From assembly GCA_029785375.1 (NCBI GenBank), contig JAFLZV010000001.1, positions 124,954 through 179,235 of the forward strand: 54,282 bases of DNA, read 5' to 3'. The notes beneath the pieces were generated by a model. The model was not told the origin of the DNA. It was given only the letters and a program-made list of their open reading frames with translations, and did no database searches. The translations under genes were made by a program, and so were the position numbers. Below are positions 1,106 to 20,556 of this stretch, piece after piece (position 1 is the stretch's first letter; each line of letters begins with the position of its first letter). This stretch comes from Nitrososphaerota archaeon (GTDB taxonomy: Archaea; Thermoproteota; Nitrososphaeria; Nitrososphaerales; Gagatemarchaeaceae).

Positions 1106-2422
1106 GTGCCTGACCCCAAAGAGGATGAAGTAATCCTTCCCTGGGAGGCTGTGAAGTCCCCCCACACCAAGGAGGACTACAAGCGGGACGCCAGGTGGTT
1201 CCTGGAGTTCGCCGGGTTCGCGGACCCGAAGAAGATACACCACAAACCCGGGCCCGACTTCGCCGTCAAGATCACCTCGAAGGAGGTGGAGGAGGGGATG
1301 GTTAGGTTGGTGGAGGCATTCAGGAAGGACCCGGCCCAGGCGAAGAGGCTGGTGATACGCTTCATCCGGGAGTACAACCCCCTCATCCTGGCGAAGAAGA
1401 TTGGGACCACGGAGACGAGGCACAGGCTGAGGCCCATAATACTCGCCTGCGAGATGAACGAGATTCTCCTCCCGTGGAAGAAGCTCATGAGGCTTATCGA
1501 GAGCGGGAGAACCACCAAGGACGACAGGGAGTACCGCCTGGAGGAGATACGGCTGATGCTCCCGAGGGCGTGGATACAGCTGCAGGTGGCCATCCTCTTC
1601 ATGTGTTCCGCAGGGGTACGGGTGGGGGCCTTCGCCTTCCTGGACGTGGAGGACGTGCGGCCGGTGTACAGGAAGGCGGGGGAGGTAGTGGTCCCGGAGC
1701 CCGGAGAGCTGAAGCTGGGGGTGAACGGGTTGCATGTTCTCCCGGCGGGGGCGGAGCTCCTGTGCGGAGCGATGACGGTCTACTCTGAGGAGGGAGGGGA
1801 CGAATACGACACCTTGATCATGAAGGAGGCGTACCAAAAGCGGGCCGAATACCTCGAGGTCAGGGCCAGGGAGGGGCAGAAGATCACGGCGGACTCTCCC
1901 GCGGTGGTCACTAGGAGGGCTTGGGAAGATGAGTGGCTGAGGTGGAAGACCAGGGGGATAGCGAATGCCATCAGTGACCTCCTGTGGAGTAGCGGACTGA
2001 GAACTGAGAAGAAGAGACGACATGAGGTGCATATGGCTCACGGGTTCAGGAAGTTTTACGACAACGTCGCCAAGGACTACATCGCCGAGGAGTATGTCGA
2101 GAAGCTGATAGGCCACTACACGGGGACCAAGGAGCACTACGACAGGCACCTCCCGAAGCCGGCGGTGGAGCAGTACCTGAGGGCGATGCCCTTCCTCTCA
2201 ATAGGGGAGGCGTACAGGAACGAAGCGGCCCTCACCCAGAGACTAGAAGAGGTGGAAGCAGCAAATGAAGGGGACCTCAAGGACATGAAGCTGGAGCTCC
2301 TCACCCTCAAAGACGAGAAAAAGGGGCTCGAGGAGAGGCTTGAGAAGCACGACAGGCTGCTGGAGGTGCTCCTGAAGCACCCTGGGGTTGCTGAGCTGCT
2401 GAAGGAGCACTCAGCGCCTTAA
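1106..2422 (+). CDS. Tyrosine recombinase/integrase, archaeal type, intact
   Basis: This 438-residue site-specific recombinase would integrate or excise a mobile element by strand exchange through a 3'-phosphotyrosine. An N-terminal core-binding region (about 1-150) carries RDARWFLEFAGF. The catalytic domain (about 150-370) shows Arg in SAGVRVGAF, the HxxR pair in AHGFRKFYD, and the nucleophile Tyr in GTKEHYDRHLP, so the R...HxxR...Y set is present. The last 70 residues form a heptad-rich coiled coil. The start at GTG 1106 is preferred because the decayed copy at 5605 begins with the same GTG-CC and aligned residues; GTG 1097 is the alternative and lies inside an inverted repeat. The gene directly follows tRNA-Asn on the same strand, a usual place for archaeal integrative elements. 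Confidence 0.88.
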   Translation: MPDPKEDEVILPWEAVKSPHTKEDYKRDARWFLEFAGFADPKKIHHKPGPDFAVKITSKEVEEGMVRLVEAFRKDPAQAKRLVIRFIREYNPLILAKKIGTTETRHRLRPIILACEMNEILLPWKKLMRLIESGRTTKDDREYRLEEIRLMLPRAWIQLQVAILFMCSAGVRVGAFAFLDVEDVRPVYRKAGEVVVPEPGELKLGVNGLHVLPAGAELLCGAMTVYSEEGGDEYDTLIMKEAYQKRAEYLEVRAREGQKITADSPAVVTRRAWEDEWLRWKTRGIANAISDLLWSSGLRTEKKRRHEVHMAHGFRKFYDNVAKDYIAEEYVEKLIGHYTGTKEHYDRHLPKPAVEQYLRAMPFLSIGEAYRNEAALTQRLEEVEAANEGDLKDMKLELLTLKDEKKGLEERLEKHDRLLEVLLKHPGVAELLKEHSAP

Positions 2423-2445
2423 ATCCGGACGCCGTCCGTGACAGC

Positions 2446-2601
2446 ATGTATGCCGGGCTCAGATGCAGGGTGACCCTGAGGGAGTTCTACCCCGTAGAAG
2501 AGGGGACAACAATCAGGTGTTCGGAGTGTAGTGAAGTCATCTGCGAAGTGATGGAAAAGGCGGCCTGGGTCCGGAGCGGAAAGAGCCTGGTCGCGCGCTA
2601 G
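2446..2601 (+). CDS. Small zinc-ribbon-like ORF (51 aa), hypothetical
   Basis: An ATG-started frame of 51 codons follows the recombinase by 23 nt. It contains CSECSEVIC, a CxxC pair with another Cys three residues on, plus an upstream Cys, so it could bind zinc. Its stop codon lies at the base of a strong hairpin (2600-2630). There is no recognisable family; it could be a small element-encoded protein or a chance ORF. Confidence 0.35.
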   Translation: MYAGLRCRVTLREFYPVEEGTTIRCSECSEVICEVMEKAAWVRSGKSLVAR

Positions 2602-2630
2602 GGGCAGGCTGGTGGTTGGTTCCTGCCCCT
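2600..2630 (+). terminator. Hairpin with 9-bp stem at the end of the recombinase region
   Basis: AGGGGCAGG (2600-2608) pairs with CCTGCCCCT (2622-2630) around a 13-nt loop. It begins within the TAG stop of the 51-codon ORF. There is no T-run after it, so a transcription terminator is only one reading; a recombination-related structure is another. Confidence 0.45.
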
Positions 2631-2709
2631 TGGTGGGAGTGTTCGGCAGCCATACTCGCGGACAGTTTTGGCACAGATTCGATTCGATACCAAGCTGTGG
2701 AATGCTGGC

Positions 2710-2754
2710 ACAGGATATTACCCGACAGGATATTACCCGACAGTTTATTACCAG
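2710..2754 (+). repeat. Three tandem copies of a 15-nt repeat
   Basis: Units at 2710-2724 and 2725-2739 are identical (ACAGGATATTACCCG); the third at 2740-2754 is a variant (ACAGTTTATTACCAG). The array ends 25 nt before the TTG start of the truncated transporter gene. It contains AT-rich steps every 15 nt. It is too short to be CRISPR; a protein-binding iteron or an element end is possible. Confidence 0.7.
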
Positions 2755-2779
2755 CCTCATCCTCTAATCGGGGAAGGAT

Positions 2780-3910
2780 TTGACCCAAAACGAGCCGTCA
2801 AAGTTCGAAATGGCCGTGAAGACTCGGGATAGGGGCTATTTCGTCTATGGGAGCCCTAGAGGGCTCGTCCTTGGGCCCAAGAATTCGAGCAAAGATGACC
2901 ACATCACAATAGGCGTGATGGGAAGCGTGCTGTTGGTGGTCTTCAGGTTCTTTCACGGCTTCGGGTTCGGCGGAGAGTGGGGAGGCGCATCCACGTGGAT
3001 CACGGAGCAGGCGAGCAGGTCCAAGTGGAGGGCGTTCTGGGGGAACTGGGTCGGCCAGGGGACGATAATCGGAGCCGTCTTCGCCGCCGGGGTCTTTGTC
3101 TCGTTCCTCGGGCTGATGGGCAAGGCTCGGTTCCTGGCAGAAGGCTGGCGCACCGCCTTCCTGCTCGGCGCGGTCGCGCTTGCGGGAGCGGCCGTGATGA
3201 GATACCGCTTCTCCGAGACCGAGATATTCGAGAGCCTGGTACAGCGGAAGGAGACCCTCAGGATGCCCGCGGTCATGGTCATGAGAGACCAGTGGAGGCT
3301 GGTGCTGCTGCTCTCGGTCGCCACCATGTCCACCCCGGCCGCGTTCTTCGTTCTGACCACGTTCGCGACCGGCTACCTCGCGCTCCTCAGGGTGAGCTCC
3401 GCGCCGCTGATCATGGGGCTGATAGTGGCGGGCGTGGTCTCCATATTCGAGGTGGTGGGGTTCATGGTGGTGGCGGACAGGAAGGGCAGGAAGATGGTGA
3501 TGGCCGCCGGCTCCCTGGCCCCGGGCGTCCTGGCCTTTCCTTTCTTCATGCTGCTCAACACGAGCGTCCCTTCTCTCATCGCCACGGCGGTGATACTCAT
3601 GCTCCTCTCCACCACTGTCAACACCGCTCTGGCCACGACGTGGTTCGCCGAGCAGTTCCCTCCGATCTACAGGTTCTCAGGCGTCGGGCTGAGCCACACC
3701 ATCGGCATATTCCTCGGGGGCGGGCTGGCTCCTCTCTTCGCGGCTTCCCTGGTGGCCGCGGCAGGAGGCGCCCTGCAGGGGTGGCCCTACGTCTCCCTGA
3801 TGATCGTCGTGTACTGCGCGCTGTCCTTCGTTGCGGTGCTCTTCTGCAGAGAGACCAAGGGCGTCAGCATGGAGCACCCCTGGACGAGGAGGAGCGGAGC
3901 CGATGGCTGA
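2780..3910 (+). CDS. MFS transporter, metabolite:H+ symporter (MHS) type, 5'-truncated
   Basis: Membrane transporter of the major facilitator superfamily. From residue about 47 it matches the sugar/metabolite:proton symporter branch, including FRFFHGFGFGGEWGGAS at the TM4 signature, the central loop, and ADRKGRKMVM between TM8 and TM9 (the second copy of the DRxGRR motif). The family normally has about 430-450 residues and 12 helices; this one has 376, and TM1-TM3 with the first DRxGRR loop are missing. Residues 1-46 are hydrophilic and do not look like a transporter, so they seem to come from non-homologous DNA at a junction. It overlaps the UbiA gene by 8 nt (ATGGCTGA), so the two were probably co-transcribed. 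Transport activity is doubtful. Confidence 0.75.
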   Translation: MTQNEPSKFEMAVKTRDRGYFVYGSPRGLVLGPKNSSKDDHITIGVMGSVLLVVFRFFHGFGFGGEWGGASTWITEQASRSKWRAFWGNWVGQGTIIGAVFAAGVFVSFLGLMGKARFLAEGWRTAFLLGAVALAGAAVMRYRFSETEIFESLVQRKETLRMPAVMVMRDQWRLVLLLSVATMSTPAAFFVLTTFATGYLALLRVSSAPLIMGLIVAGVVSIFEVVGFMVVADRKGRKMVMAAGSLAPGVLAFPFFMLLNTSVPSLIATAVILMLLSTTVNTALATTWFAEQFPPIYRFSGVGLSHTIGIFLGGGLAPLFAASLVAAAGGALQGWPYVSLMIVVYCALSFVAVLFCRETKGVSMEHPWTRRSGADG

Positions 3911-16282: not shown

Positions 16283-18979
16283 TCAGGAGCTCTTCATCAT
16301 CTCCAGCTTCTCAGGGAGGTAGGTGTCCACGATGTAGCTAAGGCCGTACCTGGCGAAGGCCTCCTGCTCGCTCTTCCGCTTGTACTTCAGGAATGTCTCG
16401 AGCTCGTCGTGCCACATCTTCTCGGTGTACCTTGGATCGGACTTCAACTCGTAGAGCCGCTTGATGTCGACCTCGGTCAGCTTGTCCGAAGGGAGCTTGT
16501 ACTTCTGGATGTCGCTCGCGTACACCCCGAGCCACTTGGAGTTGGGGGTGGTCAGTTCCCTCAGGTGGGCCGCGTTGGCCGAGTTGTGAAGCAGTATTCC
16601 AGAGCTGCCTCCAATGAACCTCTCGACGCCAGGGACTGAGACGTCGTATACGTATTCGTCTTTCTTGGATGTCTGCTCGATGGCGACCAGGGGGTCAAAC
16701 GCGACGTCGCTCTCGGCAAGGTTCAACAACGATGTAGCCAGATCTCTCGAACCCCGCTCAATGGGAGCTTGGTCGCATTCCAGCATGTGGGCAAGCACCC
16801 CAATGACGTGCTCGCGGTTCGTCCCACCCTCGCGGTCATGCTGAATCACCTCGCAAATCCGTCGGTACAGTATCTGTGATTGGGAATGGTGGTTAGCATG
16901 GCGGTATATCTCCTTCTTCATATGAACTAAACCGGTGTTTACGACTGGAAACGCCTTGGGCATTAGGTAAGAGCTCCTCTCCGTCGACTGGACGTGTGCT
17001 AGGATCAGAGCCCTGTCTTTGTCATGCAACACTGTAGACGCCACCTTCTCAACTTCCGAGGCACCTGAGACAACCAGGGAGACCCCCCCTTTCCCAGTCG
17101 ATGGGAATATCCCGTTCATCGTCATGAGATACGCGAGCTCAGACATCATAGATGGATTCTTCATTTTCCACACTACCCCCCCGGAGTTTGTTATGTAGCC
17201 GTCCCCGAAGCAGCCCTTGAGGAACTCTAGGACCTGAGACTTCTTTGCGGAGAAGATGACCGAAGGCAGGTGCTTGTGCGCGAACCCGGTGCCGCAGAGC
17301 CGCAGGAAGAGGAGGGCCGTCGGTGTTCCGCCGAAACGCAGGCTTAACCCGTTCCCTTCTACGTCGACCACCCTTCTGATTGTGGATTCGGGGAAGGCTT
17401 CTCTGATGCAGAGTTCGGCGTCTTCTACGACCTCAGGCTCGTGCAGACCGAAGGAGAGCTCCACGGCGCGGGGGATTCCTTTTGATTTCACGACCCTCCC
17501 CTCAGAGATGTAGTACCCCAAGAGTCTCGAGAACCCCTTAGTTAGCCAGATGAGTGCAGGGAGTCGGTCAGGATTCCTGCTTTCGCGGCAACTGATGTGA
17601 GCAGAACGCAGCCTAGAGAGATTGGGCCTCTTCAGGCCAGATCGGAAGGACGTCAGCTTCCGCCTGGAGTGATGTCTCGAGCCTTGGCCGGGAAGATGCA
17701 CATACAGCCTTGGTACTTTCGCCTCCTGGGATAATCCCAAGAGTTCGGAAACCGCGTTCACCATGGCGGGCGGGCAGTTCTTCCGCGAAGCGCTTCTGCC
17801 AATCACCAGCAGTTCGCCAGCCTTCAGGTCCGTGGTCGGAACTGGTTGTATCTGTCCGTCCCTTAGCACAAAGACGCTATGGTTCGGGGTGACTTCGACC
17901 GTTCTCCCGCTGGATGAAACGAGACGGTAGAGCGGTCCGGTGTTTCTGTGGCGAATCGCAGCTGAAAGAGGCTTGAATCTGACTTTGGTATCGGCATCAA
18001 CGGTGAGGGTTTCATAAGGTATGGCACCGCAAATCTCGTTCCCTGATGAGTCGTAGTAGTAGCCGTACTTCTCTATGCAATCGTCCACGAACTGCCCGAT
18101 AGGGACGGGCTGTATCCTCCCGGTCGAATCACGGACAATGATTGGTTCGTCCCTCTGAACAGAGCCGCTCTTGATGACCATGGCTATGTGGGCCCCCCAG
18201 GGGTCAGCGTCGCAGAGGATCCCCACGGGGAGGCCGAGCTCCTGGTTCAGCCGTCTGATGAGGAACCGCGTCGACCTCGGGGGCTGCCCTGCGGTGTTGA
18301 TCAGTATCGCCTTGTACTTTTGGTGCACCCTCTCCTCGATGAACCTGGTGAAAAGGCCGCCCTTCTCTATCGCAAGGACGATCTCCGCGTCAGTGTCTCT
18401 GAACTCTGCTGTGGTGAGCGCCGGCCCGATCATCACCCCGTCGGGGTTAGCCGAGAGGTCAGCGGTCTTCCCTTCGTAGCCTGGGACGGTATATTCTATG
18501 GTCATGTTCCCGAAGATGGCGCTCCTTTCCTCCGGGTAGATGTTCATCCCCTCCCTGGCCATCTGCATCAGGACCTCCAGGTCCGTGATCAGCTCGTCCG
18601 ACTCTGCCTGGTCCTGGAACTCGACGTTGAACGCCTGGGCCGAATAGAACACGTCTCTGAGGGTGGACGTGCGCTTCTCGTCCACCAGCTTCTTTGCGAA
18701 GGAGGCGAGCCAGACCAGCTGGGTGAACGGGCGGATGTGCTTGATGTTCCCCGACGACTTCTTCACCGTGGTCGCGCCAAGCACGAACTGCTGCAGCTTC
18801 TTGTCGTAGACTATGTTCCGGACCGAGCGGCTGGCCAGGGTCAGGCTGGGGAAGCGCCCCTCGTCCAGGTCGGTGTAGACGCTCCCTCCCAGCTCGTGGA
18901 GGAGGCCCTGGACCGTGTTCTGCCTCGTCTCAGCTGAACCTGTCGATTGCTTCTTGGTCGCTTTTTTCTTGGTTGACAT
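16283..18979 (-). CDS. top6A: Topoisomerase VI subunit A precursor with an in-frame intein
   Basis: Cutting subunit of type IIB DNA topoisomerase VI. The catalytic Tyr is in LRDVFYSAQAFN (Tyr about 112), and the Toprim Mg2+ site is CDADPWG (Asp about 257 and 259). The precursor is 898 residues; removal of a 527-residue intein (residues 273-799) leaves 371, the normal size. The splice junction falls in the conserved HIAMVIKSG/SANAAHLREL segment, 13 residues beyond DADPWG. The ATG at 18977-18979 is favoured because GGAGGG lies 5 nt upstream; a GTG or ATG up to 19039 would overlap top6B more. It overlaps the top6B end by about 50 nt, so the two subunits are coupled. Subunit A is inactive until splicing occurs. 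Confidence 0.93.
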   Translation of the reverse strand: MSTKKKATKKQSTGSAETRQNTVQGLLHELGGSVYTDLDEGRFPSLTLASRSVRNIVYDKKLQQFVLGATTVKKSSGNIKHIRPFTQLVWLASFAKKLVDEKRTSTLRDVFYSAQAFNVEFQDQAESDELITDLEVLMQMAREGMNIYPEERSAIFGNMTIEYTVPGYEGKTADLSANPDGVMIGPALTTAEFRDTDAEIVLAIEKGGLFTRFIEERVHQKYKAILINTAGQPPRSTRFLIRRLNQELGLPVGILCDADPWGAHIAMVIKSGSVQRDEPIIVRDSTGRIQPVPIGQFVDDCIEKYGYYYDSSGNEICGAIPYETLTVDADTKVRFKPLSAAIRHRNTGPLYRLVSSSGRTVEVTPNHSVFVLRDGQIQPVPTTDLKAGELLVIGRSASRKNCPPAMVNAVSELLGLSQEAKVPRLYVHLPGQGSRHHSRRKLTSFRSGLKRPNLSRLRSAHISCRESRNPDRLPALIWLTKGFSRLLGYYISEGRVVKSKGIPRAVELSFGLHEPEVVEDAELCIREAFPESTIRRVVDVEGNGLSLRFGGTPTALLFLRLCGTGFAHKHLPSVIFSAKKSQVLEFLKGCFGDGYITNSGGVVWKMKNPSMMSELAYLMTMNGIFPSTGKGGVSLVVSGASEVEKVASTVLHDKDRALILAHVQSTERSSYLMPKAFPVVNTGLVHMKKEIYRHANHHSQSQILYRRICEVIQHDREGGTNREHVIGVLAHMLECDQAPIERGSRDLATSLLNLAESDVAFDPLVAIEQTSKKDEYVYDVSVPGVERFIGGSSGILLHNSANAAHLRELTTPNSKWLGVYASDIQKYKLPSDKLTEVDIKRLYELKSDPRYTEKMWHDELETFLKYKRKSEQEAFARYGLSYIVDTYLPEKLEMMKSS
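16583..18163 (-). mobile_element. Top6A intein with LAGLIDADG homing endonuclease
   Basis: A 527-codon protein intron. It begins with Ser (SVQRDEPIIV), not Cys. Block B is VEVTPNHSVFVL (TxxH), block F is YVYDVSVPG, and it ends ILLHN followed by Ser+1, so the splicing residues Ser1, His95, His526, Asn527 and Ser+1 are all present. Between them are two dodecapeptide motifs, LLGYYISEG (about 214-222) and FLKGCFGDGY (about 314-323), each with an acidic residue. Thus a LAGLIDADG endonuclease that could spread the element into intein-free alleles is probably active. The coding DNA appears more AT-rich than the flanking extein DNA, in keeping with horizontal arrival. It sits in the catalytic Toprim domain, a place where loss by imprecise deletion would be lethal. 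Confidence 0.93.
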
Positions 18980-20556
18980 TTTCTCCCTCCGCTTCATCTG
19001 CCGGTCCCCCCTCGGGCTGACCGGCTTCATTAGTCTCATCCCCGTCAGACTCGCTGCCTATGAGCTGCCTGTACTTCGGGAGCGATTTCTTCCCTGCCAG
19101 TTCGGTGGAGAACTGGGCGATCAGAGGTAGGTACTTCCCGTAGATGTTCATCTTCTTCTGGACCGCTTCCATGCTCCCCTTGTGGGATAGGAAGATCCCG
19201 AGCCTACGCAGCGCCTCCCGCACTGCGTTCCTGATCTCCCTCTGGATCTCCGGCCTGTCCGCGATGTATTCCTTGCCGACCGTCTTGTACGGAATCCTAG
19301 TGCTCGCGATGTGTGTTATCACGCCGACCGGGGCGTCGGACGGGACGTGGTACCTTCGCCAGTCCACTTCCTCGTTGAGGACCTCGAAGCTGACGTCGGA
19401 GCTCTCGTCGTAAAGGAGCGGGATCCGGTTCGCGAACCTGAAGAGCTTGACCCCGGGTTGCAGCACCTTCCCTCCGTAGGCCACCCCGACCTCGACCAAG
19501 AACGGGAAGCCCGAATATGACGAGGGAGGCCGCATGACCACGGTGGAGAACTCGGGCTGGAGCTCCTTGGCGATGCCCGCCATGAGGATCTCCTCGCCGA
19601 TGGGCGAGAGCACGGCAGCATCGGGCTGGAGGAAGTCGGGGAAACGTTGGAGTGCATCCACCACGGCTACTATCTGGTTGGTGCTGAGCCTCTTCGGAGG
19701 GAGCTTCGAGTTCACCCCTGCGAACTCCAGGAACTTGGTCGCTATCCTGTCCCCCACTCTGTGGAAGTGCGTGACCATGAACGTCTTCATGTCGTGCTCC
19801 TCCGACACCTTCACTATTCGCTTGAACGCCTCGACGTCCACGCCGTAGGGGTGTGGCAGAGTCTCCTTGGGAGGGGAAGGCATCGTGGTGGTTGCCCTTT
19901 CGTAGTAGGTTATCTGGCCGGTGGGGTCGACGAATGTCAGGTTGGCATAGCTGGCCACCAGGGCGGTCTGCTTGAAGTAGTCGCCTATCTTCTGGGACGC
20001 GCGGAGGTAGTCGCCCTCTAGGACTATGTCCACCCGGGTCCCCGTTGAGCCGTCGGCGTCGCTGTTGAATCGCTTGAGGACGGTGGGCCTGTTCTCCCCT
20101 ATGTCTATCATCATCTGGAAGCCGTACTTGCGCTTCCCGTCGGGGGAGGTGGTCACCGTCACAGGCTTGTTGGTGGTGATCTGGCCATATAGGATGGCCA
20201 TGGTCCCTCCCAGGCCGAACATCCCCCGGGACTGTCTCAATACGTACTTCGACCCGTAGAAGACCTTCCCGAAGGCGCTTGGTACGTGCTGCGGCGCCAC
20301 CCCCGTGCCGTTGTCGATGACGGTGAGCCCGTAGGGCTTCGGGTCCGGGAGCGACAGGTTGGGGTCCATGGGCGTTATCCTGACATAGACGTCCGGCGGC
20401 GTCCCTATCATCTCAGCAGAATCCAGGGAGTTCTCGACTAGCTCTCTGATGGCCATGTAAAGGGCGCGCGCGGGGTTGGTGAATCCGGCCAGGTCACGGT
20501 TACGGTAGAAAGAACTCTGAGGGCGAAATCTCCGCGAATGTGGCCTTGCTACTCAG
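18930..20556 (-). CDS. top6B: Topoisomerase VI subunit B, frameshifted near the N-terminus
   Basis: ATP-binding GHKL subunit of topoisomerase VI. The open frame from ATG 20456 begins inside the Bergerat fold (MAIRELVENSLDSAE, N box), followed by VIDNGTGV, FGLGGTM and GTRVDIVLEG. The normal N-terminus is visible upstream but in another frame: FAEISPSEFF, then with one nucleotide removed from the AAA run at 20509-20511 (TTT on the minus strand), YRNRDLAGFTNPARALY joins MAIREL exactly. So the gene should run to about 20556 with a +1 frameshift. A Shine-Dalgarno GGAGGTG (20564-20570) is 7 nt before a CTG codon (20554-20556) and abuts an out-of-frame ATG. Repaired length is about 541 residues, normal for the family. 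The C-terminal tail is acidic and overlaps top6A. Confidence 0.9.

Follow-up and report, generated by a model that had tools for sequence, protein, structure and literature searches.

Why is the gene for the A subunit of topoisomerase VI (Top6A), the archaeal relative of Spo11, interrupted by 527 in-frame codons in a member of the Nitrososphaerota? The stretch of DNA that raises this question, hereafter the window, comprises 54,282 nucleotides of contig JAFLZV010000001.1 (assembly GCA_029785375.1, positions 124,954 to 179,235). Its genome (G000) belongs to family f1, apparently the Gagatemarchaeaceae (group I.1c) of the Nitrososphaerales. To judge from profiles, junction residues and a structural model, positions 16583-18163 on the minus strand of the window very probably encode a full-length, apparently active class-1 homing intein with Ser as its first residue (Ser1), best read as a selfish element that the host tolerates. 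Comparison with relatives shows that its presence is patchy, that its empty sites are precise and that it is younger or older than its host genes, depending on the pair of genomes considered.

A class-1 intein in the Toprim domain of Top6A

The 527-residue insert splits the Toprim domain at VIKSG|SANAAHL, the bar marking the insertion point: SVQRDEPIIVRD directly follows VIKSG, and GILLHN directly precedes SANAAHL, whose Ser+1 codon, TCG, lies at 16580-16582. We call this position site 3 of Top6A, sites being numbered by protein order. The features of the insert and of its host gene all lie on the minus strand. The N-terminal part of the Hint domain (17783-18163) starts with S1 (SVQRDEP...) at 18161-18163 and carries block B, TPNH, at 17879-17890. 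The C-terminal part (16583-16705) carries block F, YVYDVSVPGVERF, and block G (GILLHN), which ends in His-Asn at 16583-16588. Between the two parts lies a LAGLIDADG homing endonuclease domain (16985-17554, intein residues 204-393), with the acidic Glu of motif 1 (LLGYYISEG, 17498-17524) and the acidic Asp of motif 2 (FLKGCFGDG, 17198-17224) both intact. The endonuclease is followed by a helical segment (16712-16930, residues 412-484) that may serve splicing or stability, since it is largely kept in both mini-inteins described below.

Profile searches support this layout. The Pfam profiles Intein_splicing (PF14890, E 3.6e-18) and LAGLIDADG_3 (E 2.8e-5) both matched above their curated cut-offs, as did the NCBIfam profiles intein_Nterm (40.4 bits, cut-off 24.5) and intein_Cterm (21.1 bits, cut-off 15.6). 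In the PDB the nearest solved sequence is PI-PkoII (E 5.8e-24), the TFIIB inteins coming next. An AlphaFold2 model, computed from the window sequence and 13 named relatives, has a mean predicted local distance difference test score of 83.4 and a predicted template modelling score of 0.80. Its best structural match is again PI-PkoII (2cw7) over residues 1-527 (Foldseek E 7.7e-28; VIA Z 33.1 over 450 residues, root-mean-square deviation 3.6 A), and the endonuclease part alone matches I-DmoI (Z 16, model residues 204-390). In an alignment of 15 of the first 18 site-3 inteins found, no row departs from S1, from Thr and His in block B, from the His-Asn end or from Ser+1; the motif-1 Glu is retained in 12 and the motif-2 Asp in all of the 13 full-length rows. 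Hint profiles, Ser1, block B TxxH, His-Asn, Ser+1 and the existence of intein-free alleles place the element among class-1 inteins, and the two acidic motifs, the fold and horizontal mobility at one site mark its central domain as a LAGLIDADG endonuclease.

The host gene is top6A, as it encodes TP6A_N and Toprim domains, also matches PRK04342 and adjoins top6B. Its open reading frame (16283-19039) counts 918 residues from the first ATG, at 19039, and is open from there; from the likely start, the ATG at 18979 (gene 16283-18979), the precursor has 898 residues, 371 of extein and 527 of intein. The N-extein (18164-18979, 272 residues) holds TP6A_N and the first half of Toprim, and the C-extein (16283-16582, 99 residues plus stop) the remainder of Top6A. 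The match to the Toprim profile PF21180 falls into two stretches; the better one ends at residue 295 of 918, the insert starting at residue 293. The DxD metal motif of Toprim (CDADPWG) has its DAD codons at 18203-18211; in relatives an intein enters here at another site, site 2. Upstream, top6B (18930-20456, 508 residues from its ATG, frame of 540) is intein-free in the window. The original prediction had proposed, from the letters of the window, a homing intein of the Ser1 type within the Toprim part of Top6A: a 527-codon in-frame insert with blocks A, B, F and G, two LAGLIDADG motifs, Ser1, His-Asn and Ser+1. This core proposal and its count of 371 extein and 527 intein residues held up, with the Hint and LAGLIDADG profiles, the junctions, the AlphaFold2 fold and the empty alleles all in agreement.

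Distribution of the intein

In family f1, 44 of 46 genomes have Top6A, and site 3 is occupied in 20 of them and empty in 24. Two genomes were scored from single loci, G068 from L052 and G069 from L048; G069, which carries other inteins instead, is counted among the empty ones. Within the window's genus, the site is occupied in 13 and empty in 16 of the 29 genomes with Top6A. The intein-free alleles that the original prediction called for do exist in relatives: their Top6A is contiguous, and the empty alleles of G008, G009 and G030 align with the window on both flanks at 86.6-88.2% identity and break at 18164 and 16579. With a Hint match present as well, the refuting conditions named in that prediction do not hold. 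G028 and G029 contain near-copies of the window (99.98% over 9653 bp and 99.95% over 6684 bp, respectively), and Top6A is identical between G014 and G006. As a side observation, the near-copy in G029 lies on a 10.9-kb contig (G029:C1; L001, L031), and two other intein loci of that bin score the same as those of G008, so this contig is possibly misbinned.

We also looked beyond the family. In a draw of 141 genomes of the phylum besides the window's own (at least 80% complete), Top6A was found in all and 138 had a listed row; among the listed rows, only G440 besides the window had an intein-split frame, and its intein is at site 4. A further genome of this draw, G497, has a long frame (610), with an unbroken match. 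A profile of the intein matched 23 of 400 genomes of the class at E 1e-20. Fourteen of these matches are site-3 alleles, all in family f1: 12 are full-length, one is a mini-intein in two pieces (G034) and one matches via the first 46 columns (G068). The other nine lack the host flanks, only some of their host genes having been read. Two candidates, G461 and G440 (C19; E 1e-44 to 1e-45), were dropped as HerA-like ATPases, named by eye. In a draw of 398 genomes of the phylum, a full-length match was found in the window only. The exception outside the family is locus L053, whose frame enters a site-3 intein before its contig ends, and whose Top6A groups with that of G087, a genome of family f20. 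A search of viral contigs found no relatives; as its patterns lay in the extein flanks, an intein housed in another gene would have escaped it. Two weak partial matches came from phages and none from plasmids. Within these searches there appears to be no sign of a virus carrying the window's allele.

Mobility of the intein

On the host tree, the presence of the intein requires 11 changes, at least eight of which are forced by well-supported (starred) branches. This tree has 34 rows, ten (near-copies, partial rows and G035) having been dropped from 44. It replaced a first tree of all 44 rows because of the partly wrong long row of G035, the partial rows and the near-copies; G087 formed a long branch. 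On the first tree, 22 of 500 shuffles gave as few changes as observed, and in the non-redundant repeat 262 and 282 of 500 did so. As the signal vanished in this way, we claim no clustering of presence.

The intein and its host also differ in history. For 13 rows, intein and host topologies reject each other in approximately unbiased tests (p from 7e-47 to 0.0018), with the intein protein (1e-40 and 7e-47), the intein DNA (2.7e-5 and 1.8e-3), the host protein (1.3e-4) and the host DNA (1e-6 and 3e-7). We then compared synonymous divergence (dS) of the intein with that of three host genes, the Top6A extein, Top6B and INO1, in eight pairs of our choice; the intein is younger in one, older in five and equal in two. 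Between the window and G006, dS is 0.70 (0.54-0.92) for the Top6A extein, 0.88 for Top6B and 0.95 for INO1, versus 0.38 (0.32-0.48) for the intein, which was therefore shared after the hosts had parted. Between the window and G022, the host genes give 0.44, 0.44 and 0.40, and the intein is saturated (lower bound about 2.2), so these near relatives carry distinct, long-separated inteins at the same site. Intein dS also exceeds host dS between the window and G024, G027 and G023, and between G006 and G022. In the pairs G022-G004 and G022-G024, intein and host dS agree, indicating vertical descent there and that intein dS is not inflated in general.

The endonuclease appears in different states along these lineages. 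The ratio of nonsynonymous to synonymous divergence (dN/dS) between the window and G006 is 0.16 for the intein and 0.17 for the endonuclease, and the endonuclease value is also 0.17 for G022-G004; for several distant pairs, in which dS is saturated, the ratio is uninformative. In G024 the motif-1 Glu is replaced by Gly, and the endonuclease dN/dS is about 0.31. Two genomes have mini-inteins without endonuclease, of 313 residues (G032) and 278 residues (G034). Together, the young, old, vertically inherited, degenerate and mini-inteins look like the steps of a homing cycle.

Such a cycle would operate as follows. The 898-residue precursor would be translated, and the Hint domain would excise itself through class-1 splicing, in which Ser1 and Ser+1 act as nucleophiles and Asn527 cyclises; the intact junctions suggest that a normal 371-residue Top6A would be left. 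The intein would thus be tolerated because it splices. Its endonuclease would act on top6A alleles that lack the intein, cutting them at the KSG|S codons, and when the break is mended from an intein-bearing allele, the intein would be copied across together with a short piece of the flanking sequence. Decay or loss of the endonuclease would follow in some lineages.

The Ser+1 codon and the flanks

If homing copies flanking DNA, it may have left traces in the codons next to the insertion point. We compared the Ser+1 codon in 41 of the 44 host rows, G035, G068 and G739 being omitted (G035, which is occupied, reads TCA). All 18 occupied rows have TCN; the 23 empty rows, including one outgroup, comprise 14 with TCN and nine with AGC. 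The Fisher probability of 0.0025, uncorrected for kinship or for the number of columns, is the lowest among the 18 columns with Ser in at least 30 rows, the next being 0.053. Within a 17-row clade around the window, 16 of these 18 columns never switched between TCN and AGY, the exceptions being Ser -2 and Ser+1. At +1, all eight occupied rows of the clade have TCN and all nine empty rows AGC, several rows being near-copies. By hand-made parsimony for this clade on the first tree, three gains of AGC are as costly as a single gain with two reversals.

Local divergence of the flanks was examined in eight pairs. In the 30 nt downstream, G006 and G030 differ by 27% versus 9.6% overall (0.6% of local windows as high), G022 and G030 by 30% (3.6% of windows), the window and G030 by 20% (3.9%), and G012 and G020 by 20% (18%). 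In the 15 nt upstream, G022-G030 and window-G022 differ by 47% (about 1% of windows), and window-G030 and G006-G030 by 0%.

The split between TCN and AGC may be a scar of gene conversion of the flanks during homing, or it may reflect resistance of the AGC alleles. Under the latter possibility, AGC at +1 would confer immunity through a synonymous change of two bases, from one Ser codon to another, that blocks cutting by the endonuclease; we advance it tentatively, as something we would at present rather doubt than believe. If it were true, a selfish intein would have shaped codon choice in an important catalytic domain, leaving the Top6A protein unchanged. The AGC/TCN difference offers a direct and cheap test of resistance to homing by a synonymous codon.

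A probable selfish element and its alternatives

Several points weigh against an active homing intein that moves among these hosts. Block F has Glu (VERF) where many inteins have His. Unclustered presence is expected under mobility but also under noise. Recombination of host genes could account for part of the disagreement between the trees, and the dS of the intein could be somewhat raised by its weaker codon bias. The relatives are almost all metagenome bins, and several rows are near-copies, so that 20 of 44 overstates the number of independent cases. As for the +1 codon, the pattern comes mainly from one clade with near-copies, few independent events lie behind it, and gains or losses account for it equally well. 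Flank divergence is raised in some pairs only, a mixed result that is supportive of a co-conversion tract and goes no further.

One alternative is that the intein is a relic, which splices but whose endonuclease no longer cuts, presence and absence then resulting from vertical descent with many precise losses. The degenerate endonuclease of G024 and the apparently vertical inheritance of the inteins of G022, G004 and G024 are in line with this idea. Nevertheless, the window's copy retains both acidic residues of its endonuclease, its intein is younger than the host genes in the comparison with G006, and the near relative G022 has an anciently diverged intein at the same site. We consider a relic very improbable.

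A second alternative is a domesticated or conditional intein, whose splicing responds to acidity, redox or DNA damage and which the host keeps as a gate on the assembly of topoisomerase VI. The original prediction had suggested that splicing could gate this assembly. Gating is possible in principle, the insert interrupting Toprim near its metal motif: the intein lies 13 residues past the DxD motif, so the precursor is probably inactive. The two mini-inteins have been kept without an endonuclease, and conditional splicing of other inteins has been described (PMC5790916, PMC6195587). Close relatives nonetheless differ in whether they have the intein, and its history is discordant with that of the host. 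Fixation in the lineage, which we chose as the mark of an indispensable role, is not observed, and the 24 empty alleles argue against such a role. Because patchy presence, about 11 changes and discordant ages are how a homing element behaves, the proposal of gating finds no support here, and we regard domestication as highly improbable. Finally, a normal lineage-specific insertion domain of Top6A would explain why the frame is open throughout in the first 18 loci found, the window's included, but it is virtually ruled out by the Hint and LAGLIDADG profiles, the invariant splice residues, the fold match to solved inteins and the contiguous Top6A of intein-free relatives.

Comparison with known inteins

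The selfish intein proposed here resembles PI-PkoII, which we take to be the pol-2 intein of Thermococcus, located in DNA polymerase, in its Hint and LAGLIDADG fold over the whole length and in the alignment of both endonuclease motifs; identity is 25%, and the insertion site and host group differ. The TFIIB inteins of Methanocaldococcus (5o9i, 5o9j) share an archaeal Hint domain, at 30-33% identity in the splicing domain, but are mini-inteins in a transcription factor. Among 23 inteins compared, the nearest outside Top6A are HerA-type Ser1 inteins of the same class and phylum (L122, L095), of which 24-27% of positions are identical in alignments of about 550-575 residues (E 1e-32 to 1e-47). 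Unlike the window's intein, they interrupt a HerA-like ATPase, named by eye, at its nucleotide-binding loop (GSGK or RSGK), and have Thr at +1.

Inteins often occupy catalytic sites of DNA enzymes, topoisomerases included (PMC5874633). PMC4071816 describes inteins in top6B of Halobacteria, the partner subunit of the same enzyme, which are set apart by subunit and lineage. The MCM-a to MCM-d inteins of Haloferacales are likewise patchy and mobile and occupy several nearby sites in one catalytic domain, but of a replicative helicase and in Euryarchaeota (PMC10643990). In PMC9348778, the one paper among those searched to mention both inteins and Top6A, inteins were taken out of several Top6A and Top6B sequences without being named. 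The word intein is absent from the main text of a 2024 study of topoisomerase VI distribution (PMC11302465) and from the text of a genome paper that covers group I.1c (Gagatemarchaeaceae, f_UBA183; PMC10640624). In an open-access collection of papers we found no printed description of a Top6A intein; InBase or Novikova et al. 2016 may list one. The kind of intein is well known, and Top6A looks unreported as its host gene. Family f1 offers a natural homing cycle at one site, with empty, recently shared, independently invaded, decaying and mini alleles.

Other intein sites in topoisomerase VI

Relatives have inteins at a minimum of four positions in Top6A and at two in Top6B; residues of the M. 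mazei Top6A chain were counted by hand from an alignment. Site 1 (PEER|S) is occupied in L050, from a Bathyarchaeota bin. Site 2 (TD|SDPWG, M. mazei 254|255), within the DxD motif, is occupied in L048, L050 and L052. Site 3, that of the window (KSG|S), corresponds to M. mazei 269|270, and site 4 (V(W/Y)A|SDI, M. mazei 292|293) is occupied in L016, L017/L120, L038/L121, L048, L049 and L119. Double occupancy occurs as 1+2 (L050), 2+3 (L052), 2+4 (L048) and 3+4 (L016, L038, L120). In L052 the two inteins are separated by 15 host residues and the contig ends in the second; in L016 the second intein is cut by the contig end. All inteins at these sites are Ser1, and those with both ends seen all precede Ser. 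The inteins at site 4 come closest to the one at site 1 (25-29% identity, E 3e-39 to 2e-63), a similarity that suggests a jump between sites within one gene.

In Top6B, both sites are occupied in G033 (L116, G033:C5:143500-153500), at LVEN|S and at THI|C before PYKTVGKE, presumably the N-box and the switch lysine. This two-intein top6B is directly followed by a top6A with one intein; three splicing reactions should therefore be needed for its topoisomerase VI. G031 combines an LVEN|S intein in Top6B, whose start is off the contig, with Top6A inteins at sites 3 and 4. If AGC at +1 is indeed an immunity allele, inteins would have attacked the topoisomerase VI of these archaea over a long time, at four or more sites in Top6A and at two in Top6B.

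Two observations concern the DxD motif. The site-2 intein of L052 (G068) ends in Arg-Asn and not His-Asn, and splicing there may be slow or follow another route. Elsewhere in the phylum, the Top6A frame of L118 (G622:C100) reads TDCD and then runs into an intein, which places the insertion at the DxD motif or beside it; the contig ends inside the intein.

Other inteins in the genome and class

Among 300 genomes drawn from the class, Intein_splicing matches were found in 100, of which 23 belong to family f1 (median 9 matches) and the other 77 do not (median 2). These matches are pieces, with at most about 12 candidates scored per genome and medians taken by hand; 180 genomes without matches were not itemised, and at least one genome of f1 (G003) has none. 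In PMC10643990, a survey table lists one single-intein gene and zero multi-intein genes for 18 genomes of Thaumarchaeota. Family f1 shows that some Nitrososphaeria are intein-rich.

The window's genome itself has further inteins, their host proteins named by eye. In L114 (G000:C3:121294-122301), about 2.7 kb before the window start, a Cys1 intein separates iron-sulphur motifs of a NuoI-like protein of the ferredoxin type (DYGR|C...VHN|CVFCGLC). L111 (G000:C4, about 1317-3104) is a Cys1 intein in the P-loop of an aIF2-gamma-like GTPase (GHVDHGK|C...HN|TTL), and L115 (G000:C4, 30714-32174) a Cys1 intein in a GlmS-like aminotransferase (MAH|C...HN|SRWATHGG). In other genomes, again counted and named by eye, an MCM-like frame of 2282 residues (L126, G093:C11:36500-44500) has apparently five inteins, an MCM-like frame of 1796 residues (L127, G087) apparently three, and a PolB-like frame of 2307 residues (L125, G035:C70:1500-10000) apparently four. 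A Cdc48-like AAA ATPase (L123, G008:C30:47500-52500) has two, a Cys1 intein in the P-loop and a Ser1 intein.

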